Source of the DNA: Tsukamurella pulmonis
GTDB lineage: Bacteria > Actinomycetota > Actinomycetes > Mycobacteriales > Mycobacteriaceae
Direction: 5' to 3'
NCBI RefSeq assembly: GCF_900103175.1
Contig: NZ_FNLF01000002.1
Location: 3,486,136-3,550,135, forward strand
Length of the DNA: 64,000 nucleotides
Shown here: positions 566 to 19,367 of the stretch, piece after piece
Position numbering within the stretch: the stretch's first letter is position 1
How the letters are laid out: each line of letters begins with the position of its first letter
Program-made: the position numbers and the translations under genes
Notes under the pieces: model-generated
The model's database searches: none
Told to the model about the DNA's origin: nothing
The model's input: the letters and a program-made list of their open reading frames with translations, nothing else

Positions 566-1255
566 TCAGCGGCCCAGCCCGTACACGCCGGTGGCGTCGT
601 CGCGCACCATCTCGCCCATGCGGAACTCGATGACGCGGCGGCGCATCGAGTCGACGATGTGGCGGTCGTGCGTGGCCATCACCACGGTGGTGCCGGCCCG
701 GTTGATGCGGTCGAGCACGTCCACGATCTCGGCGGAGGTGTCGGGGTCGAGGTTGCCGGTGGGCTCGTCGGCGAGCAGCAGCAGCGGCCGGTTGGCGATG
801 GCGCGGGCGATGGCCACGCGCTGCTTCTCACCGCCGGACAGCTCGCTCGGCATACGGTTCGCCTTGCCCCCCAGGCCCACGTAGTCGAGCACCTGCGGCA
901 CCGTGCGGTCGATGACGTTGCGCGGCTTGCCGATGACCTCGAGCGCGAAGGCCACGTTCTCGGCCACCGTCTTCTGTTGCAGCAGGCGGAAGTCCTGGAA
1001 GACGCAGCCCAGCGACTGCCGCAGCTGCGGCACGCGACGGCCGGAGAGCTTGTTGACGTGGTAGTCGCCCACGTAGACGTCACCGCTCGTCGGCTTGTCC
1101 TCCTTGAGCAGGAGCCGGAAGAACGTCGACTTCCCGGAACCCGAGGGCCCGATCAGGAAGGCGAACTCCCCCTTGCCGATCTCGAGCGACAGGTCGTGGA
1201 GCGCCGGCCGGGCCGACGCCTTGTACATCATCGTGACGTTCTGGAGCGTGATCAC
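566..1255 (-). CDS. ftsE: FtsE cell-division ATP-binding protein
   Basis: ABC-type ATPase that drives FtsX during septal peptidoglycan remodelling at the cytoplasmic face of the membrane. At 229 residues it has full family length. Visible motifs are Walker [10 protein letters not shown] (36-44), ABC signature LSGGE (139-143), Walker B LLLLADE (158-164) with the catalytic Glu, and the switch His at 196 (ATHD). The ATG start is followed by the family-typical MITLQNVT. It lies between a Pro-rich membrane protein gene upstream and ftsX downstream, probably in one operon with prfB. Confidence 0.97.
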
Positions 1256-1282
1256 GAGCGCCCAGTCTACTGACGTCCCGGA

Positions 1283-1825
1283 CTACCCCGGCGGAACCGT
1301 GGTCGTCGGTGCGCCGCCCGTGCTCGGCGGGGCGCCGACCGCGCCGCTCGGGACCGGCACCGTCACCCCGCCGGGCAGGACGATCCCGCCCTGCCCGGAC
1401 GTCGTCGTCGCGTCGCTGGAGCCGGACGCCCCCGGCTCGCCGGAGGTTCCCGGCACCGTCGACGACGGTGCGCCCGACCGACTCGGATCGCCACTGGGGC
1501 GGCCCGTGCTCGACGGTGCCCGCGACGGCGTGGTGCTCACCGGCAGCTCGGAGGTGGGCGCGACCGGGGGTGGCGCGGTGGAGGTCGCGGCGGGCGGCTG
1601 TCCCGTGCGGCGCTGCTCCTCCGGAACGAACTGCGCGTACAGGTCGAGGTACCACCACAGCAGCCCGACGAACAGCAGCACCAGGACGACGGTGCTCGTG
1701 CGGGCCCGGGTGTGCGGGATCGTCTTGGGGATGCGCTCCCACGCCGCGGGGAGCGGGCGGGTGGGCTCCGAGGCGGCGCCGGCCGGCTCGTCGCCGCCCT
1801 CGGGCGGCTTCGACAGATCGCTCAC
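1283..1825 (-). CDS. Single-pass membrane protein with Pro/Ser/Thr-rich exterior tail (Rv3103c-like)
   Basis: A 180-residue protein from GTG at 1823-1825. A charged cytoplasmic N-terminus (about 50 residues) is followed by one membrane segment (VVLVLLFVGLLWWYL) and a long low-complexity tail rich in Pro, Ser, Thr and Gly, probably a cell-wall-spanning stretch. The position between the MscS-like gene and ftsE corresponds to the proline-rich Rv3103c of M. tuberculosis. The start overlaps the upstream stop by four bases (GTGA), suggesting translational coupling. Function is unknown; the prfB-ftsEX context hints at a division or envelope role. Confidence 0.8.
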   Translation of the reverse strand: MSDLSKPPEGGDEPAGAASEPTRPLPAAWERIPKTIPHTRARTSTVVLVLLFVGLLWWYLDLYAQFVPEEQRRTGQPPAATSTAPPPVAPTSELPVSTTPSRAPSSTGRPSGDPSRSGAPSSTVPGTSGEPGASGSSDATTTSGQGGIVLPGGVTVPVPSGAVGAPPSTGGAPTTTVPPG

Positions 1826-2733
1826 GACGGCGTCACCTCCGACTCGTCCTCGACGCTGTCGGTGACGGGCGCGACGTCGATACCGGCCGTCGCGAGGCTG
1901 CGGACGATGCGCTCGCGCAGGTTGCGGCCGACCTCGAACTGCTTGCCGGGCAGCGTGCGCGCGACCATCCGCAGGTTCACCTGGTCCAGGTCGATGGACT
2001 CGATGCCCATGAGGGTGGGCTCGTCGAGCAGCAGGGTGGACATCTTCGGGTCGCGGTAGGCCCGCTCCCCCACGCTGTGCAGCAGCGCGTTGACCTTGCC
2101 CATGTCCACCGTCTTGGGCAGCGGGATGTCGACGACCGCGCGCGCCCAGTCCTTGGACAGGTTGGTGGCCTTGACGATCTGGCCGTTCGGCACGGTGATG
2201 ACCTCGCCGTCGGTGTTGCGCAGCTTGGTCACCCGCAGCGTCACGTCGGAGACGGTGCCCTCGGCGGTCGAGCCGCCGGTCAGGGCGAGTTCCACGACGT
2301 CGCCGAAGCCGTACTGCCGCTCGGTGATGAGGAAGAAGCCGGCGAGCAGGTCCTGCACGACGCGCTGGGCGCCGAAGCCCAGCGCGGCGCCGATGACCGT
2401 GGCGGGCGCGACGAGTGCGTTGATCGGGACGCCGAGCGCCTTGACGATCTGGTACGTCGCGAACAGGTAGATCACGGCGATCGCGACCCAGCTGATCACC
2501 TGGATCAGCGCGTGCTGGTGCTTGGCCGACTCCGACCGGACCAGCGAGTCGCTGTTCTTGAACTGCGCGTCGATCCGCATGGTGACGCGGGCCGAGGACC
2601 AGTTGACGAACCGGTTCGCCAGCACCGCGGCGATCGTCCACAGCGCGATCGGCAGCACCCGCTGGAACATGAGGAGCCGCCACCCCGTGAGGTCGGGAAG
2701 GATCGACGCCGCGAGCTGGGTGCTACTCGTCAT
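1822..2733 (-). CDS. MscS-family mechanosensitive channel (Rv3104c-like)
   Basis: A 303-residue small-conductance-type mechanosensitive channel, expected to release osmolytes across the inner membrane on hypo-osmotic shock. Membrane segments lie in the first 130 residues, followed by the MscS pore helix region ([20 protein letters not shown]) and the cytoplasmic beta domain ([17 protein letters not shown]). The start is taken at ATG 2731-2733, which overlaps the prfB stop by 11 bases. A longer form from 2784 would sit deep inside prfB and is unlikely. It is coupled at its 3' end to the next gene by a GTGA overlap. Confidence 0.87.
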
Positions 2734-3844
2734 CGCCGCGCATCCGCCAGCGGATGCCGGCCTCGATGAAGCCGTCCAGGTCACCGTCGAGCACGGCCGA
2801 CGGATTGTTCACCTCGTACTCGGTGCGCAGGTCCTTGACCATCTGGTACGGGTGCAGCACGTAGGAGCGCATCTGGTTGCCCCACGAGGCGCCCTCGTTG
2901 GTCTTGAGGGCGTCCATCTGGGCCCGCTCCTCCTGGCGCTTGCGCTCGAGCAGCTTGGCCTGCAGCACCTTCATGGCCGAGACCTTGTTCTGCAGCTGGC
3001 TCTTCTCGTTCTGGCAGGTGACGACGATGCCGGTGGGGATGTGCGTGAGCCGCACCGCGGAGTCGGTGGTGTTGACCGACTGGCCGCCCGGGCCCGACGA
3101 GCGGTACACGTCCACGCGCACCTCGTTCTCGTCGACGTCGATGTGGTCGGTGGTCTCCACCACGGGCAGCACCTCGACCTCGGCGAAGGACGTCTGGCGG
3201 CGGCCCTGGTTGTCGAACGGGCTGATCCGCACGAGGCGGTGCGTGCCCATCTCGACGGAGAGGGTGCCGTACGCGTAATCGGTCTTCACCGCGAACGTGG
3301 CGGACTTCAGGCCCGCCTCCTCGGCGTAGCTCGTGTCGTAGACCTCGACCCCGTAGCCGTGCTTCTCGGCCCAGCGGATGTACATGCGCATGAGCATCTC
3401 GGCCCAGTCCGCGGCGTCGACGCCGCCGGCACCTGCGCGGATGTTGACCAGCGCGTCGCGGGCGTCGTACTCGCCCGAGAGCATGGTCTTGACCTCCATG
3501 GCCTCGATCTCGGTGCGCAGCTGGGCGCGGTCGCCGTCGGCGTCCTCGAGGGCGGCGGCCCTGTCGTCGCCCTCCTCCGCCTCGGCCAGCTCGTACAGCA
3601 CGGGCAGGTCGTCGAGGCGCTGGCGCAGGTCGGTGACGCGGCGCAGTTCGGCCTGGGCGTGCGAGAGCTCACTGGTGACCTGCTGCGCGTTGGCCTGGTC
3701 GTTCCAGAGCTCCGGGTCGGACGCCTTGTGTTCGAGCTCGTCGACGCGCCGGCGCAGCTCGTCGAGGTCGATCACCTTCTCCACCGTCTGGAGGGTGGTC
3801 TCGAGGCTCTCGATGTCTGCGGCTACGTCAGGTTGCACAGTCAC
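2723..3844 (-). CDS. prfB: Peptide chain release factor 2
   Basis: Class I release factor that recognises UGA and UAA and triggers peptidyl-tRNA hydrolysis. The 373-residue product carries the RF2 codon-recognition tripeptide SPF (208-210) and the universal GGQ (253-255, in [17 protein letters not shown]). The start is GTG at 3842-3844; a second in-frame GTG lies two codons downstream. The reading frame is continuous, with no internal stop near codon 25, so the autoregulatory +1 frameshift found in many bacteria is absent. The upstream gene overlaps it by four bases (GTGA). Confidence 0.97.
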
Positions 3845-4233
3845 CCAGGATACTGGCCCGGGCCGCCGTAGGAGTCCGGTGGCGGGGTAAGGCTGCCCAA
3901 CTGCCACGAGCTGTCGACCTTGCCCACCTTGTAGTAGACGGGCAGCCGGTCCCCGACCTCCGGCCAGCGCTCGGCGAAGTCCAGCACCAGCCGCCGGTAG
4001 ACGTGCGTGGGCGGCGTGCTCGGCCCCTCGACGGTGCCGGAGACGGTGACGAACGCCTGCCCCTTCTGATCGGGCTCGACGGGGCGCGGACTCACGCCGC
4101 TGAGCGTGAGCATGCCGTCCTCCATGCCCGGGCCGGCCGGCGCGGTGCCGAGCGTGCCGCGCTTGTTGCGCTGCCACATCACCACCAGCGCACCCAGCAT
4201 CGCCGCGAGCAGGAGCACCCAGATCCATTCCAT
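3841..4233 (-). CDS. Small N-terminally anchored membrane protein, unknown
   Basis: A 130-residue protein with an N-terminal membrane segment at about residues 3-20 ([19 protein letters not shown]), a short basic stretch, and a soluble domain that may fold as a small beta structure ([23 protein letters not shown]). The C-terminus is Gly/Pro-rich. I do not recognise the family. Its stop overlaps the prfB start in a GTGA quartet, so it is probably the first gene of the prfB-mscS-ftsEX operon. The start is ATG at 4231-4233. Confidence 0.72.
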
Positions 4234-4283
4234 ATGTCCAGATTACCGACGGGGACCGCCGGGCGCCCGCAGTAGCGCTCCGA

Positions 4284-4289
4284 TACCGT
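4284..4289 (+). promoter_or_regulatory. TANNNT -10 box of a leaderless promoter for hisN
   Basis: TACCGT lies six bases before the ATG at 4296, placing the transcript start at or next to the start codon. No Shine-Dalgarno sequence is present. Confidence 0.5.
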
Positions 4290-4295
4290 TCTCGC

Positions 4296-5096
4296 ATGTC
4301 GAGTGCACCGTCGAACCCCGTCACCCCCGATCTGGCCCTGGCGCTGACCCTCGCGGACGCCGCGGACGAGCTGACCATGGCGCGGTTCGGCGCGCTGGAC
4401 CTCGAGGTCGACGCGAAGCCGGACCTCACGCCCGTCTCGGACGCGGACCTCGCGACGGAGACGCTGATCCGGGAGCGGCTCGCCGCGGAGCGCCCCGGCG
4501 ATGCGGTCCTCGGCGAGGAGTTCGGCGGCGAGCCCGTCTTCTCCGGGCGGCAGTGGGTGCTCGACCCGATCGACGGGACCAAGAACTACGTCCGCGCGGT
4601 CCCTGTCTGGTCCACCCTCATCGCCCTCCTCGAGGACGGCGTCCCGACGGTCGGCGTCGTCTCGGCGCCCGCGTTGCGCCGCCGCTGGTTCGCCTCCGCC
4701 GGGGCGGGCACGTTCACGCAGTTCGACGGTGGCGCGCCCCGCCGGATCTCCGTCTCGGGGGTCCGAGAGATCGCGGACGCGTCGATCTCCTTCTCGGATC
4801 TGTCCTACTTCCCCGACGCCGGATCGCGCGAACGCTTCCTGTCCCTGGCCGCCGAGGCCTGGCGCCTGCGCGGCTACGGGGACTTCTGGAGCTACTGCCT
4901 GGTGGCCGAGGGCGCCGTCGACGTCGCGGTGGAGCCGGAGGTCTCGTTGTGGGACCTGGCCGCGGTCGAGATCGTCGTCCGGGAGGCCGGGGGCCTGTTC
5001 ACCGGCACCGACGGCACGCCCGGCCCGCACGCCGGCTCGGCCGTGGCGGCGAACCCCGTCCTGCACCCGGAGGTCCTGCGTCGTCTCGCTCCCTGA
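4296..5096 (+). CDS. hisN: Inositol-monophosphatase-family phosphatase, likely histidinol-phosphatase
   Basis: Mg2+-dependent phosphatase of the IMPase superfamily (266 residues). The metal and catalytic motifs are present: GEE (73-75), DPIDGT (90-95) and the C-terminal [15 protein letters not shown]. The M. tuberculosis counterpart next to fadE24/fadE23 (Rv3137) is assigned as HisN, which removes phosphate from histidinol phosphate, and the same neighbours follow here. Inositol monophosphatase activity is the main alternative. A TACCGT box six bases upstream of ATG suggests leaderless transcription. Confidence 0.88.
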
Positions 5097-8041: not shown

Positions 8042-9235
8042 ATGGACACGAGTGCGGCCGAGCCGCGGTGGCAGCGGTGGTGGACCGCGCCCCGGCTGCG
8101 GGACTGCCTGTGCGTCCTGCTCTCCGCGCTCCTCGCCGTCACCGCCGCGGGGGTGGAGTGGCAGGCGGGTTCCGCCGCCTACGGCGTGATCGTGCTCGCG
8201 GTGGGGCTGGCCGGATCCCCCCTCCTCTGGTGGCGGCGTCGATGGCCCCTCGAGGTCACCGCGATCGGCGGAATCCTCACGATCGCCGTCGGCTTCTCCG
8301 GCGTGGCCCTGCTCGGCCTGTTCACCCTGGCGGTGCGGCGTCGCGATCGCGTCCTGGTCATCGCCACCGTCTTCGTCGCCGCCTGCATGGCCGTCCCGCA
8401 CCCCGGGTCGAGCACGCCGTGGACACTGTCGAACACCCTCACCAGCGCCGCCCTCACCGCGGCCTTCGCACTCTGGGGCTCCTACGTGGGCGCGCGCCGC
8501 GACCTGCTCGAGTCCCTGCGCGAGCGGGCCGTGCGCGCCGAGCAGGAGCGTGAGCTGCGCGCCGTGCAGGCGCGCACCGCGGAACGCTCGCGCATCGCTC
8601 GCGAGATGCACGACGTACTCGCGCACCGGGTCTCGCTCATCGCGCTACAGGCCGGCGCGCTCGAGGTGAACGCGCAGGGCACCGTCGAACGCGCCGCCGC
8701 GGAGATCCGCGCCACCGCGCACGAGACCCTCGAGGACCTGCGCGGCGTTCTCGGCGTTCTGCGCGGCGCCGACTCGGAACCGCTCGCCCCGCAACCGGAC
8801 CTGGCCGACCTGGCCCGCCTGGCGGAGGAGTCCCGGGTGGGCGGGGCCACCGTCGACCTGCAGCTGGACGAGGCGGCCTCGGCACCGCACGCCGTGCCGG
8901 AGGCCCTGGGACGCACCGCCTACCGCATCGTGCAGGAGAGCCTGACGAACGTGCGCAAGCACGCCGGCCCGGCCGCCGCCCACGTGACCGTGCGGCTGCG
9001 CGGGCAGGTCCTCACCATCGAGGTCGTCAACGACGCGCCGCGCTCGCCCACGTCCACCACGCTGCCCGGCTCGGGCGCGGGACTGATCGGACTGGCCGAA
9101 CGGGTGCAGCTCGCCGGGGGCGAGATCTCCTCCGGCGCCACGGCGGACGGCGGTTGGCGCGTGTCCGCGCAGCTGCCCGTGCCCGCCGTGAGCGCGGGCG
9201 CCGACGCGGCGGAGGGCCTCGCCGAGCGGTCCTGA
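8042..9235 (+). CDS. Sensor histidine kinase, NarL/HisKA_3 type
   Basis: Membrane-bound two-component sensor of 397 residues. Four to five hydrophobic segments lie between about residues 22 and 150 with almost no extracytoplasmic domain, suggesting membrane or intramembrane sensing. A helical linker (155-180) leads to the HisKA_3 box REMHDVLAHRVSL with phospho-acceptor His190, then the HATPase domain with the N-box ESLTNVRKHA and Gly-rich GSGAGLIGLAERV. The ATG at 8042 is favoured over long upstream extensions overlapping the fadE gene. It is followed 44 bp later by its response regulator; the linked MMPL transporter is the likely output. Confidence 0.9.
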   Translation: MDTSAAEPRWQRWWTAPRLRDCLCVLLSALLAVTAAGVEWQAGSAAYGVIVLAVGLAGSPLLWWRRRWPLEVTAIGGILTIAVGFSGVALLGLFTLAVRRRDRVLVIATVFVAACMAVPHPGSSTPWTLSNTLTSAALTAAFALWGSYVGARRDLLESLRERAVRAEQERELRAVQARTAERSRIAREMHDVLAHRVSLIALQAGALEVNAQGTVERAAAEIRATAHETLEDLRGVLGVLRGADSEPLAPQPDLADLARLAEESRVGGATVDLQLDEAASAPHAVPEALGRTAYRIVQESLTNVRKHAGPAAAHVTVRLRGQVLTIEVVNDAPRSPTSTTLPGSGAGLIGLAERVQLAGGEISSGATADGGWRVSAQLPVPAVSAGADAAEGLAERS

Positions 9236-9279
9236 CCCGCTTCGGGCGTGGCAGGATGGTCACGACCCCAGGAGGCGCC

Positions 9280-9936
9280 GTGACCCGCATCGTCATCATC
9301 GACGACGACCCGTTGGTGCGCTCCGGCCTGCGCATGATCATCGAATCCGCCGACGACTTGAGCATCGTCGCCGAGGGCGGTGACGGCGCCGACGCCGTGG
9401 ACCTGGTCCGCGAGCACCGGCCCGACGTGGTGCTGATGGACATCCGGATGCCCGCCGTCGACGGGCTCGCCGCCACCGCGCTGGTGCGCGCGGAACCGCA
9501 GCCGCCGCAGGTGATCGTGCTGACCACCTTCGATCTCGACGATTACGTGATGCGCGCCCTGCAGGCGGGCGCCGCCGGTTTCATGCTCAAGGACACGCCG
9601 CCGCGGCAACTGCTCGACGGTGTCCGCGTGGTCGCCTCGGGCGAGGCGATGCTGTCCCCCAGCGTGACCCGCAAGCTGATCGATCGGTTCGCCGGCGATC
9701 CCCGCGAGGACCGCCGCCGCGCCGCGCTCGCCCGGATCGCCGTGCTCACCGAACGCGAGCACGAGGTGTTCCTCGGCATCGCGGCGGGCGGCTCGAACGC
9801 GCAGATCGGCCGCGACCTGTTCATGAGCGAGGCCACCGTCAAGACGCACGTCTCGCGGCTGCTCGACAAGCTCGACGTCGCCAACCGGGTGCAGTTGGCG
9901 ATCCTCGCCCACGACGCGGGTCTCCCCCGCCGCTAG
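9280..9936 (+). CDS. Response regulator, NarL/LuxR type
   Basis: DNA-binding partner of the preceding kinase, 218 residues. The receiver domain has the acidic triad (8-10), phospho-acceptor Asp54 in VVLMDIRMP and Lys104 (FMLKD). The C-terminal LuxR-type helix-turn-helix begins at LTEREHEVFLGIAAGGSN and includes SEATVKTHVSRLLDKL. The GTG at 9280 is chosen because AGGAGG ends four bases upstream; ATG 9256 in the same frame lacks this support. A palindromic motif shared with the kinase upstream region follows directly after its stop. Confidence 0.92.
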   Translation: MTRIVIIDDDPLVRSGLRMIIESADDLSIVAEGGDGADAVDLVREHRPDVVLMDIRMPAVDGLAATALVRAEPQPPQVIVLTTFDLDDYVMRALQAGAAGFMLKDTPPRQLLDGVRVVASGEAMLSPSVTRKLIDRFAGDPREDRRRAALARIAVLTEREHEVFLGIAAGGSNAQIGRDLFMSEATVKTHVSRLLDKLDVANRVQLAILAHDAGLPRR

Positions 9937-9951
9937 GCCGGCGGCTCCGCG

Positions 9952-9968
9952 CCTACGACTTTCGTAGG
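9952..9968. promoter_or_regulatory. Perfect palindrome, candidate operator before the MMPL fusion gene
   Basis: CCTACGA-CTT-TCGTAGG is a perfect dyad with a three-base centre, 109 bp before the transporter start. Its core CTACGACTTTCGT recurs at 7961-7973 (opposite strand), and a further half site CTACGA occurs at 9999-10004. Confidence 0.55.
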
Positions 9969-9973
9969 GGCCG

Positions 9974-9990
9974 CGCAGCGATCCGCTGCG
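9974..9990. repeat. Short perfect inverted repeat between regulator and transporter genes
   Basis: CGCAGCG-ATC-CGCTGCG has seven-base arms. It could be a second operator or a weak transcription-stop hairpin after the regulator gene; no U-tract follows. Confidence 0.35.
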
Positions 9991-10076
9991 ACCATCGTCT
10001 ACGAAGCGGATATCGGTCGTCCCCCAGGCCTTTCGGACCCTAGTGTGTTCCCGTCGCGGTCGCCAGACTGGACGGC

Positions 10077-13000
10077 ATGGCATCACTGCTCTACAAGGTC
10101 GGACGCTTCTGCTACCGGAAATGGTGGCTCGTCCTCGTGCTCTGGATCGTCGCCTTCGTCGCGATCGGAGCCGCGGGGTCGGCGGTGTCCAAACCCTTCA
10201 AGGACGATTTCAACCTCCCCGGTAGCCGCGCCGTCGAGGCGCAGGACGTGCTGCAGGAGAAATTCCCCGAGACGGCGAAGACGCAGGCGCCCACCGCCAC
10301 CGTCGTACTGCAGTCCACCAACGGGCAGCGCCTGGACCAGGGCGGTAACGCCGCGGCCGTCACCGCCGTGGTCACCAAGCTGCGCGAGGTGCCGGAGCTC
10401 ACCGATGCGGACAGGGCCGCCGTCGTCAACCCCACCGTCGGGGCCGCGGCCGCGGAGAACCTGAGCAGCGACGGCCGGACCGCCCAGATCCGGTTCTCCT
10501 TCAGCGACGTCAAGGAGGTCTCCGAGGAGTCGAAGGAGGCGGTCGAGGAGGCGAAGAAGGCCGGCACCGACGCGGGCCTGAAGGTCGAGAGCGCGGGCTC
10601 GGCGAACGAGACCGAGGCCGAGCCCCCGGCGGAGTTGATCGGCATCGTCGTCGCGGTGATCGTCATGATCATCACCTTCGCGGCGCTGCTCGCGGCGCTC
10701 ATGCCGCTGGGCGCGGCGCTGATCGGCATCGGGCTCTCGACGTCGATCATCGCGATCGGCACCTCGTTCCTCACGCTCGGCACCTCCACCACCGGCCTGT
10801 CGATGATGATCGGCCTGGCGGTGGGCATCGACTACTCCCTGTTCGTGATCTCCCGCTACCGGCAGGAACTGGTCACCACGTCGGACCGCGCCCACGCCGC
10901 GGGTCTCGCGGTCGGCACCGCCGGCAGCGCCGTGGTCTTCGCCGGCGCCACCGTGATCATCGCGCTGTGCGGCCTGTCGATCACCGGCATGTCCTTCCTG
11001 TCCCAGATGGGCCTGGGCGCCGCGGTCACCGTCGCGCTCGCGGTGCTGGTGGCTCTGACGGTGCTGCCCGCCCTCCTCGGCCTGTTCAAGTCGGCGGTCT
11101 TCACGCCGAAGCTGCCGCTGCTGTGGACGCCGGAGCAGACCGAGCGCCGCCCGATGGGGCAGCGGATCGGCGAGTTGCTCACCAGCAAGCCGCTCCCCTT
11201 CCTCGTGGGCGCCGTCGCGATCCTCGCGGTCGCCGCCATCCCGATCGGAAAGCTGGAACTGGGACTCGATTTCGAGGCGCCGTCGGACAAGGCGGCGGTC
11301 CAGATGCAGACCGAGGCGTTCGGCGCGGGCAAATCCTCCCCGCTGGTCGCGGTCATCGACACGCAGGGCCGGGGCGATCTGACGGCCGCCACCACCCGGT
11401 TCGCCGACGAGGCGCGCACGTTGCCGGGAATCGCGCACGACGGCGTCATCGGGCCCGTCCCGAACGCGAAGGGCGATGCGGCGCAGTTCATCATCGTTCC
11501 CGAGTCCGGGCCGTCGACCAAGCAGACCGCGACGCTGCTCGACGAGCTGCGCGAGCGCGCGGAGACCGTGGGCGGGGCGACCTCGACCTTCGTCGGCATC
11601 GGCGGAGCGGCCGCGATCAACGCGGACTTCTCCGAGACCCTCACCTCGAAGCTGCCGCTGTACCTCGTCGTGGTGGTCGGGCTGGCGATCCTGCTGCTGA
11701 TGATCGTCTTCCGCTCGGTGATCATCCCGATCATCGCCTCCCTGGGATTCCTCCTCTCCATCGCCGCCACGTTCGGCGTCACGGTCGGCTTCTTCCAGGA
11801 GGGCTGGCTGGGCTGGATCGCCCCTGAGGAGCGGGGCCCGATCCTCGTCTTCATGCCGATCTTCCTGATCGGCATCGTCTTCGGACTCGCGATGGACTAT
11901 CAGGTGTTCCTGGTCAGCCGGATGCGGGAGGAACACCACCACGGCGCGCCGGCGCTGGAGGCGATCCGGATCGGCTACCGGTCCGGGGCGCGCGTGGTGA
12001 CCGCCGCCGCGATCATCATGATCTCGGTCTTCGCCGGATTCACGCTGTCCTCCATGACCTTCCTCAAGCTGATGGGCTTCGCCATGGCGGCGGCGATCGT
12101 CTTCGACGCCTTCCTCGTGCGGATGATCATCATGCCGACGGCGATGGCGGTGCTCGGCGAGCGCGCCTGGTGGATTCCGCGCTGGCTCGACAAGGTGCTC
12201 CCCCGGATCGACGTGGAGGGCGACGGGCTGCGGGCGATGTCCGCGGCGATGGCCGCACCCTGCGCGCCGGCGGACACCGCTGCACCGCAGGACGTCCCGA
12301 CGTCGGCGGAGGCGAAGACGGCCCCGATCACGGCGGCCGCGACTGTCCCCGTCGCGGGGCCGGCGCCGGCGCCGCTCCGGCGCGGCCGCGCGGCACCGCA
12401 CGCCGGCGTACCGCACGCCGGGGCGGCCGGTGGGCCCGTCCTGCTCACGCCCGCGGCCGGAACCGGTGCACCGCAGGCGAGTCCGCGCAGCACGGCGGAG
12501 ATCGCCGAACTGCGGGCGAGCAACCGCGCGCTGGCCGCCGAGCTCTCGGAACTGCGTTCGGACTACCGTTCCCTCTCCGCGCACGCCCGGCTCCAGGCCG
12601 ACTCCGTCACCGACCCGGTGCGATTCGAGATCGGGTCCACCGACGGTGGCGCCCGCTCGGGCACCCTGCACACGGCGCACCGCACGATCGCCACCCCCGC
12701 GTTCGTCGCCTCCGCGCCGCTCGCCGCGATCCCCGGCGTGGATCCCGCCTCGGCGCTCGCGCTCGGCGCCGACGCGGTCACCGTCGACGGGACGCGACTG
12801 AAGGTGCACCCCGGCGCCGAGACGATCGAGGAGGCCGGCGGCCTCGCCGCCTTCGCCGGGTGGGACCTGCCGCTCTTCGTCGACGTCTCCGCGCCGTCGT
12901 CCGATCCCGAGAGCGCGGTGACCGCCGCACACCGCCTGGGAGGCGATGTGGTGTTCGCCCCCGCGTCGGGCACCGGTGCGCGACGCGCGCTGGCGGAGCA

Positions 13001-13676
13001 CAACTGGCTGACGGCGCTGCGCCGCGGCGAGACGTCGCTGTGGGCCAGTGTTCCGCTGCGCCTGTCGCAGGACCGGGCGGCGGTGCGCGAGCTGCTCGCC
13101 CGGCACGAGGAGGACGTGCGCTCGGGCGGCCTGGGCTTCGGCGGCGTGCGGTTCCTCGGTGGCGTCGCGGCCCCGGAGGCGCGCACCGCGCTGGCGACGC
13201 TCGTCGAGGCACTGGGCGCGCAGCGGCCGCGATACGTCGCCGGCGTCCGCGGGCCCGAGGACCTGTTGCACGCGGTGGACGCGGGCATCGACCTCATCGA
13301 GTCGGCCGCTCCGCAGGAGCTGGCGGCGCGCGGCATCGCGCTCACACCGGACGGCCCGCTCAGCCTCTCGGCACCGTCGAGCCGGGGCGACGTGCGCCCG
13401 CTCGCCGCGGACGGCGCACCGTCGGGGCTGAACCGGGCGTACCTGCACCACCTCTACCGCACCGACGTCCCGTCGGCCGTGCAGGCGGTGACGCGGCACA
13501 ACCTGCGGTACCTGGCGGAGCTCACCGCGGGAGCGCGGCGCGCGATCGCCGACGGCCGCTACCCCGCCTACCGCGACGCGGTGCTGCGCCGCTTCGGCGC
13601 CGGCGACGGGGCGGCGACGACGTCTCGGGGCGTCGTCGATCCGCGGGACGAGGACGTGGTCGGCACGCCCTCCTAG
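10077..13676 (+). CDS. MMPL-family RND transporter fused to a degenerate tRNA-guanine transglycosylase-like domain
   Basis: One uninterrupted 1199-codon frame. Residues 1-720 form a complete MMPL lipid or drug exporter with two membrane repeats and the proton-relay Asp-Tyr pairs D252-Y253 (GIDYSLFVISRY) and D607-Y608 (AMDYQVFLVSRM). Residues 720-805 are an Ala/Pro-rich linker, then a predicted coiled coil from T806 (TAEIAELRASNRALAAELSE). Residues 846-1175 follow the TGT (queuine/archaeosine transglycosylase) fold in order: RSGTLHTAHRTIATPAFV, PGAETIEEAGGLAAFAGW, RYVAGVRGPEDLLHAVDAG, NRAYLHHLYRTD, HNLRYLAEL. The nucleophile position carries Glu1075 instead of Asp, DSGG is replaced by DVSA, and the zinc cysteines are absent, so a binding or structural role is more likely than base exchange. 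The C-terminus should be cytoplasmic. It lies downstream of a NarL-type two-component pair and is probably controlled by it. Confidence 0.85.
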   Translation: MASLLYKVGRFCYRKWWLVLVLWIVAFVAIGAAGSAVSKPFKDDFNLPGSRAVEAQDVLQEKFPETAKTQAPTATVVLQSTNGQRLDQGGNAAAVTAVVTKLREVPELTDADRAAVVNPTVGAAAAENLSSDGRTAQIRFSFSDVKEVSEESKEAVEEAKKAGTDAGLKVESAGSANETEAEPPAELIGIVVAVIVMIITFAALLAALMPLGAALIGIGLSTSIIAIGTSFLTLGTSTTGLSMMIGLAVGIDYSLFVISRYRQELVTTSDRAHAAGLAVGTAGSAVVFAGATVIIALCGLSITGMSFLSQMGLGAAVTVALAVLVALTVLPALLGLFKSAVFTPKLPLLWTPEQTERRPMGQRIGELLTSKPLPFLVGAVAILAVAAIPIGKLELGLDFEAPSDKAAVQMQTEAFGAGKSSPLVAVIDTQGRGDLTAATTRFADEARTLPGIAHDGVIGPVPNAKGDAAQFIIVPESGPSTKQTATLLDELRERAETVGGATSTFVGIGGAAAINADFSETLTSKLPLYLVVVVGLAILLLMIVFRSVIIPIIASLGFLLSIAATFGVTVGFFQEGWLGWIAPEERGPILVFMPIFLIGIVFGLAMDYQVFLVSRMREEHHHGAPALEAIRIGYRSGARVVTAAAIIMISVFAGFTLSSMTFLKLMGFAMAAAIVFDAFLVRMIIMPTAMAVLGERAWWIPRWLDKVLPRIDVEGDGLRAMSAAMAAPCAPADTAAPQDVPTSAEAKTAPITAAATVPVAGPAPAPLRRGRAAPHAGVPHAGAAGGPVLLTPAAGTGAPQASPRSTAEIAELRASNRALAAELSELRSDYRSLSAHARLQADSVTDPVRFEIGSTDGGARSGTLHTAHRTIATPAFVASAPLAAIPGVDPASALALGADAVTVDGTRLKVHPGAETIEEAGGLAAFAGWDLPLFVDVSAPSSDPESAVTAAHRLGGDVVFAPASGTGARRALAEHNWLTALRRGETSLWASVPLRLSQDRAAVRELLARHEEDVRSGGLGFGGVRFLGGVAAPEARTALATLVEALGAQRPRYVAGVRGPEDLLHAVDAGIDLIESAAPQELAARGIALTPDGPLSLSAPSSRGDVRPLAADGAPSGLNRAYLHHLYRTDVPSAVQAVTRHNLRYLAELTAGARRAIADGRYPAYRDAVLRRFGAGDGAATTSRGVVDPRDEDVVGTPS

Positions 13677-13699
13677 GCGCGGGGAAGCACCCCACCCGA

Positions 13700-13738
13700 G
13701 CGGCGGCGGTGACGGCGAGAGGCCGTCTCCGCCGCCGC
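13700..13738 (+). terminator. Strong hairpin after the MMPL fusion gene
   Basis: Seventeen-base arms (13700-13716 and 13722-13738) pair with one mismatch around a GAGAG loop, 23 bp after the stop codon. No U-tract follows, as is common for actinobacterial terminators. Confidence 0.55.
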
Positions 13739-13822
13739 TGCGGCGTTACGGTCGTTGCATTCGCGCCGATCGCGTACACCGTTCCGTAACCATCGGCGAC
13801 GTGACCGGGCCCACATTTTTCC

Positions 13823-13838
13823 TGTGATTGCCATCACT
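13823..13838. promoter_or_regulatory. CRP/GlxR-like binding site upstream of rpf
   Basis: TGTGA-TTGCCA-TCACT matches the TGTGA-N6-TCACA consensus at nine of ten positions. In M. tuberculosis the cAMP receptor protein activates rpfA, so a CRP-family site before an rpf gene is expected. The site centre is about 412 bp before the TTG start, implying a long leader. Confidence 0.6.
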
Positions 13839-13839
13839 T

Positions 13840-14566
<727 letters not shown>

Positions 14567-19293: not shown

Positions 19294-19367
19294 TAGCGGG
19301 GACAGGATTTGAACCTGCGACCTCTGGGTTATGAGCCCAGCGAGCTACCGAGCTGCTCCACCCCGCG
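19294..19367 (-). tRNA. Initiator tRNA-fMet (CAU)
   Basis: A 74-base cloverleaf reading from 19367 downwards. The acceptor stem CGCGGGG pairs with CCCCGC, leaving an unpaired C1-U72, the hallmark of initiator tRNA. The anticodon loop CTCATAA is flanked by three G-C pairs (GGG/CCC), also initiator-specific. The T-loop GTTCAAATC is standard. The CCA end is not encoded. Confidence 0.96.

Follow-up and report, generated by a model that had tools for sequence, protein, structure and literature searches.

Structure and Integrity of the Fusion Gene

The window analyzed here is a 64,000-nucleotide stretch of the Tsukamurella pulmonis genome (contig NZ_FNLF01000002.1, positions 3,486,136 to 3,550,135 of the forward strand), and the gene in question encodes an exporter of the MMPL family that continues into a degenerate domain homologous to tRNA-guanine transglycosylase (TGT). 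This gene, referred to here as type C, lies at 10077..13676 on the plus strand as a single open frame of 1199 aa (124.1 kDa), which starts with an ATG at 10077 and closes with a TAG stop whose last base is 13676. It comprises an MMPL transporter part (residues 1-720, 10077..12236), an Ala/Pro-rich linker (residues 721-805, 12237..12491), a coiled coil recognized by its heptads and by coil search (residues 806-849, 12492..12623) and the TGT domain (residues 850-1176, 12624..13604), all on the same strand. An earlier note, made from the sequence alone, had read the locus in just this way, as a complete MMPL exporter joined by an Ala/Pro linker and a coiled coil to a domain homologous to TGT, and both Pfam profiles bear it out. 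MMPL (PF03176) matched the protein in two stretches with an E-value of 2.5e-85 (286.8 bits). The TGT profile (PF01702), which the note had proposed as a check, matched with an E-value of 9.5e-41 and 140.5 bits (cut-off 26.3); the window protein lacks the catalytic middle of the profile, and the match is therefore split in two. Compared with solved structures by phmmer, the TGT tail matched Zymomonas-type TGT chains, with a best E-value of 1.4e-34.

In the transporter part both Asp-Tyr pairs are present (Asp252-Tyr253 and Asp607-Tyr608), which we take to be the proton relay of MMPL pumps. The trehalose monomycolate exporter MmpL3 belongs to the same MMPL superfamily, but the window protein is not an MmpL3, scoring 200.7 bits with the NCBIfam MmpL3 model against a cut-off of 1400.

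The whole type C gene was found in one frame in five further genomes (G100, G086, G113, G122 and G123). Two of the seven other carriers are incomplete: a contig end cuts the gene in G030, and in G129 (L066, about 917-4610) an insertion that carries an ISL3-family transposase along with an AraC/DJ-1 regulator gene interrupts the MMPL part. That five of the seven other carriers have the gene whole in one frame makes a sequencing error unlikely. In our own scan of the eight type C sequences, none of the in-frame ATG or GTG codons around the linker and coil was preceded by a Shine-Dalgarno-like site, so that separate products are not supported, and a simple consensus scan of 9850-14200 found no sigma-70-like promoter. 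The TGT part of all eight sequences contained neither a stop nor a frame change. The fusion that the earlier note described was confirmed.

TGT Domains and Fusions Across Genomes

The window genome encodes four TGT domains, all fused to exporters as judged from PF01702, full frames and Pfam. Type A is an MMPL protein with a complete TGT (1425 aa, 380.9 bits) near gluQ, type B an MFS transporter with a TGT of eroded site (1078 aa), and type Bp another MFS-TGT protein, also with an eroded site (982 aa); type C carries the most eroded of the four domains. TGT was present in all 16 Tsukamurella genomes examined. Type A occurred in one frame in 14 of these, the exceptions being G125, where it is split into two frames, and G127 (890 contigs), where a fragment lies beside gluQ; it is the sole intact-looking Tgt in the genomes of the genus. 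Type B was recovered from 15 of 16 (in G125 a TGT piece alone was seen) and type C from eight, while Bp and a further type, Bq, were each found in one genome only. A separate locus scan returned six loci, all from Tsukamurella. Five carried type C (T. conjunctivitidis, T. ocularis, T. pseudospumae, strain TY48 and strain M9C, in the last of which a contig end cuts the locus) and the sixth, from strain 8F, was an MFS-TGT fusion.

Of the 114 family genomes from other genera, 108 had one TGT each, in no frame longer than 872 aa, and the 872 aa frame gave no match to four transporter queries. Among 246 genomes sampled across the class, 59 of them with TGT, frames longer than 872 aa came solely from the window genome.

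Erosion of the Type C TGT Domain

Erosion was scored at 185 reference positions that are at least 94% identical across 35 intact-type rows (20 standalone Tgts and 15 type A domains); type A rows helped define this set. Type A domains retained 183-185 of the positions, Bq 99, the other MFS-borne domains apart from that of strain 8F 89-104, and type C 64-74. By column, 60 of the 185 were kept in at least seven of the eight type C rows and 109 in one row at most, 33 of the latter through deletion. Type C kept 16-18 of 25 positions in the C-terminal helices, compared with 11-15 of 69 in the catalytic core. The earlier note had described the tail as following the TGT fold motif by motif; the homology stands, but the wording was too strong, as the window protein keeps 69 of the 185 near-invariant positions and 15 of the 69 in the core.

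In alignment with type A, the window protein has nothing opposite two stretches of 53 and 18 residues. The larger deletion (12882..12893) removed the catalytic SGGFQ loop and the next hairpin, with the preceding Asp936 kept, and the smaller one (12972..12983) follows the lost FDELTT motif that holds the Asp156 equivalent; both sites lie on the plus strand. The SGGFQ loop (S103-Q107), D156 and Q203 were lost in 8/8 type C sequences, and the Asp102 letter was kept in 8/8. Asp occupied the nucleophile position (equivalent to Asp280 in Zymomonas TGT; Asp1092 of the window protein, 13350..13352, plus strand) in four of eight type C sequences including the window, 15/15 type A domains and 17/20 standalone Tgts. 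All catalytic letters checked were kept in type A (15/15). The zinc cysteines (CxCxxC) are absent from type C and His349 is kept, but the loss of the cysteines is not telling because 14 of the 20 standalone family Tgts (L035-L054) lack them too. In comparison with the Zymomonas mobilis enzyme (PDB 1ENU, 1P0D), to which the window tail is homologous in two stretches covering most of the domain, the RAY.HHL motif and His349 are shared, whereas type C lacks the catalytic loop, the base-binding residues and the zinc cysteines and is tied to a membrane protein. On these alignments the type C domain is best read as catalytically dead.

The MFS-borne TGT of strain 8F (L060/L062) showed intermediate erosion (133/185), with Glu in place of Asp102, and appears from its sequence to be a stage between intact and dead. 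In the three standalone Tgts of sister genera without the nucleophile Asp (L036, L045 and L047), the position holds Asn, Asn or Thr; these enzymes may be inactive or use another residue.

Selection on the Fused Parts

Constraint on the parts was estimated as the median pairwise ratio of nonsynonymous to synonymous substitution rates (dN/dS; Nei-Gojobori, own script), leaving out the strain 8F proteins, Bp and the G125 pieces. For type C (8 rows) the values were 0.083 in the transporter, 0.576 in the fast-evolving linker, 0.096 in the coil and 0.288 in the TGT domain. The corresponding values were 0.183, 0.545, 0.122 and 0.201 for type B (13 rows) and 0.247, 0.508, 0.058 and 0.085 for type A (13 rows). 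No other part evolves as slowly as the coil in types A and B, and in type C its rate is close to that of the transporter. Within type C, sub-parts of the TGT domain gave 0.19-0.34, compared with 0.90 for the tail beyond it, and so the domain, dead as it appears, is still maintained. The degenerate type C TGT domain is still under purifying selection.

The Coiled Coil

A coil of about 45 residues is common to all fused types. In the window protein eight of its 11 a/d places are hydrophobic, a number attained in just one of 5000 shuffled versions. Seven rows share an invariant Asn at an a position, a feature characteristic of parallel two-stranded coils. At an E-value of 0.01 the 16 Tsukamurella genomes gave 41 coil matches, with the number in each genome equal to its number of TGT domains. 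A general Tsukamurella motif was considered and rejected, as at this threshold the coil occurred only alongside TGT domains. The 114 other family genomes gave no coil match at an E-value of 0.001. A search of 121 family genomes, in some of which not every first-look candidate was scored, found the coil in seven, all of this genus.

Origin of the Fusions

An MMPL gene was close by at eight of 20 sister-genus tgt loci, a sample chosen out of 108. The distance from the MMPL end to the first possible tgt start was 17, 33, 78 or 127 bases or a 4-base overlap at five of these loci and 618 or 1965 bases at two, and was ambiguous at L052. No coil was seen in the MMPL tails and Tgt N-termini inspected there. 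In an MMPL tree, which left out the two incomplete type C rows (G030 and G129), type A grouped with six of the eight sister-genus MMPLs (97/91). The simplest account of these trees and synteny is that an mmpL-tgt pair was fused in place in a Tsukamurella ancestor, acquiring a new linker and coil and giving the type A MMPL-Tgt, which still looks active.

Type C appears to have had a different history. Its transporters formed a clade with a TGT-less protein from G070 (100/100), separate from type A. The G070 gene (L081, 4429-6642) lies at the same chromosomal place as type C and its product, 67% identical, ends by our own reading about a dozen residues past the point where type C enters the linker; no coil match was found at this locus. 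Origin of type C by duplication of the whole type A gene is unlikely because its MMPL belongs to a separate clade with a TGT-less sister. In a tree of the coil-TGT module, type A and the standalone Tgts grouped together (100/99), apart from the eroded modules of B, C, Bp and Bq, which the strain 8F copy adjoined, and Bp of the window genome was nested in type B (99/81). Tree and synteny would be most simply explained by a single duplication of the type A module, which eroded and was then placed behind MFS transporters (type B and the single-genome MFS proteins) and, elsewhere, behind a second MMPL. Type C is thus likely another MMPL that received the module later. For the Bp transporter, the best matches sought as a TGT-less orthologue in other genomes of the genus were just 49-50% identical, so there is no clear before-and-after pair.

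Queuosine Context and Published Fusions

The earlier note knew of no described link between such an exporter and TGT, but one has been published. Quaiyum et al. (2024; PMC11130926), in the passages compared here, report that only Tsukamurella has bacterial TGTs fused to an MFS protein (Tpau_0550) and to an MMPL protein (Tpau_4044), and no other paper bearing on the fusion came up in our literature search. From their positions in G053, a genome in which no type C was found, Tpau_4044 and Tpau_0550 are probably types A and B. These published fusions share the genus and the two-part layout of the window protein; unlike them, type C has a different MMPL and a far more eroded TGT, and it is separate from type A in both the MMPL and module trees. 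The compared passages and sections of that paper make no mention of the window gene, the erosion, the coil, the spread of the module or a second MMPL. The link between exporter and TGT is therefore already known, while the type C gene, the erosion series and the coil are not in those published passages.

gluQ was present in all 16 Tsukamurella genomes and lies about 1.4 kb downstream of type A in the window genome. QueA was not found in the window genome, and a salvaged base is therefore expected. The QPTR importer family (PF02592) was also present in 16/16 genomes of the genus; a search for Qng1 (PF10343) gave no match even in controls and is hence uninformative. We infer from these genes that the finished base may be salvaged via QPTR and inserted by type A.

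Possible Role of the Degenerate TGT Domain

The explanation we favor, with a probability of roughly 0.5, is that the window gene encodes an inducible MMPL exporter whose catalytically dead TGT tail is used for assembly. The transporter would be a proton-driven exporter, to judge from its two Asp-Tyr pairs, with the C-terminal coiled coil and TGT domain on the cytoplasmic side. The module would no longer exchange bases but serve as an assembly part, the coil and TGT scaffold pairing exporters with one another or with the membrane-bound MMPL-Tgt, by analogy with the non-catalytic QTRT2. Of the uses that the earlier note had proposed for the TGT domain, a scaffold still seems the best. QTRT2, the eukaryotic partner of QTRT1, is a TGT homologue that has lost catalysis and kept the fold, so that the eukaryotic enzyme pairs a live with a dead subunit (passages of PMC6165067). 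In contrast to QTRT2, the dead type C domain is tied to exporters; descent from QTRT2 is unsupported, and pairing of type C with an active enzyme is hypothetical. Bacterial TGT is itself a homodimer, with an interface hot spot formed by Phe92 and the Trp326, Tyr330 and His333 of its mate (passages of PMC5395182). In type C the Phe92 letter was kept in 7/8 sequences, Tyr330 in 7/8 and His333 in 8/8, the latter two within the RAYLHHL motif of the window protein (13434..13454, plus strand); Trp326 was not kept (Pro in 5/8, an aromatic in 1/8). An assembly role for the coil and TGT remnant is plausible on these grounds: TGT is a homodimer, eukaryotes combine a live and a dead subunit, and three of the four hot-spot positions are kept in at least seven of eight type C sequences.

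Several results weigh against this explanation or the history behind it. Besides the Trp326 position, a Lys and a Glu that are near-invariant in intact Tgt (in the loop-helix and dimer-helix regions of our own alignment) are both lost in type C, and pairing of type C with type A through the usual TGT interface is therefore doubtful. Slower evolution of the C-terminal dimer helices of type C, sought as support for assembly, was not found: at a dN/dS of 0.34 they are no slower than the remaining domain. PF01702, coil and MMPL searches did not find type C in eight of the 16 Tsukamurella genomes, one of which (G127) is fragmented; with this absence and the copy broken by an insertion element, the gene seems dispensable. 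With regard to history, two of the eight sister-genus MMPLs (L048 and L052) branch outside the type A group. Long-branch warnings apply to both trees, and for three type C rows the module tree draws a composition warning as well. G070 is not basal among type A in either tree, so that transfer between species or loss of the module in G070 is possible.

Within this one genus a tRNA-modifying enzyme appears to have been recast as a cytoplasmic tail that recurs on different exporters, graded from intact to dead. The series from type A through the less eroded strain 8F copy to types B and C would offer a natural system for asking what use a TGT scaffold has without catalysis. A bolder and decidedly tentative extension is that the coil-TGT tail is an adaptor passed between two exporter superfamilies, which gathers MMPL and MFS pumps around the active Tgt, with the dead copies as regulatory or structural partners; queuosine tRNA modification and envelope export would then share one membrane platform.

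The alternative with most in its favor is that only the coil matters, for example in oligomerization or stability, and that the TGT domain is a slowly decaying passenger. We consider this possible though not probable. It would explain why erosion is highest in type C, why the TGT domain is three times less constrained than the coil and why the gene is patchy and once interrupted, but a passenger would hardly be expected to show lower dN/dS in every TGT sub-part than in the tail beyond, or to have stayed free of stops and frame changes in eight sequences.

Transport of queuosine precursors is the published idea for the Tsukamurella fusions and seems to us unlikely: here the MMPL and MFS proteins would carry preQ0, preQ1 or queuine, and the TGT fused to them would insert the base into tRNA. 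MMPL and MFS proteins were chosen as candidates for such transport from fusion and clustering, and a Corynebacterium MMPL failed to restore preQ0/preQ1 transport in Escherichia coli, expression problems being allowed for (compared passages of PMC11130926). The intact catalytic letters of type A, its place near gluQ and the salvaged base expected where QueA was not found would all suit this idea. By its sequence, however, type C would have no working enzyme to feed, and the known importer family QPTR is found throughout the genus. MMPL pumps also normally export. Since type C apparently lacks any enzyme that could be supplied, it would be unwise to take every fusion of a transporter with TGT for a transporter of queuosine precursors.

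It is more improbable still that the TGT domain is a sensor that gates the pump on binding guanine, queuine or tRNA. Purifying selection on the remaining domain and conserved segments among orthologues would accord with a sensor; all eight sequences, though, have lost the residues with which intact TGT grips the base, and large deletions affect the catalytic part, which also makes unlikely the earlier note's suggestion of a purine-like ligand, at least one bound in the manner of TGT. An artefact, or two separate proteins made from one region, is hardly credible, as in-frame ATG and GTG codons do occur in the linker but the frame is single in the window and five other genomes and the scans described above found neither a Shine-Dalgarno-like site at those codons nor a sigma-70-like promoter.

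Genomic Neighborhood and Possible Regulation

The proposed inducibility of the exporter comes from its neighbors. A histidine kinase gene (8048..9235; HisKA_3, HATPase_c) and a LuxR-type response regulator gene (9154..9936; Response_reg, GerE), both on the plus strand and both of uncertain start, precede the fusion gene, the regulator directly upstream of it, and this adjoining two-component system would probably induce the exporter. Between regulator and fusion gene lies a palindrome, CTACGACTTTCGTAG (9953..9967), whose core recurs with small differences in the six type C upstream regions compared (the window, L034, L055, L056, L058 and L059); it is possibly the operator of the adjoining response regulator. 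At the G070 locus the response regulator found no match, and its place is taken, by our own reading of the N-terminus, by a MerR-like gene. At Rfam gathering scores no riboswitch or other element was found in the window or in L016 and L018 (types C, A and B, respectively), the sole match being a tRNA at 19294-19367. Downstream of the fusion gene, 14174-14566 encodes a small protein with a transglycosylase-like domain (PF06737), presumably of the resuscitation-factor type.

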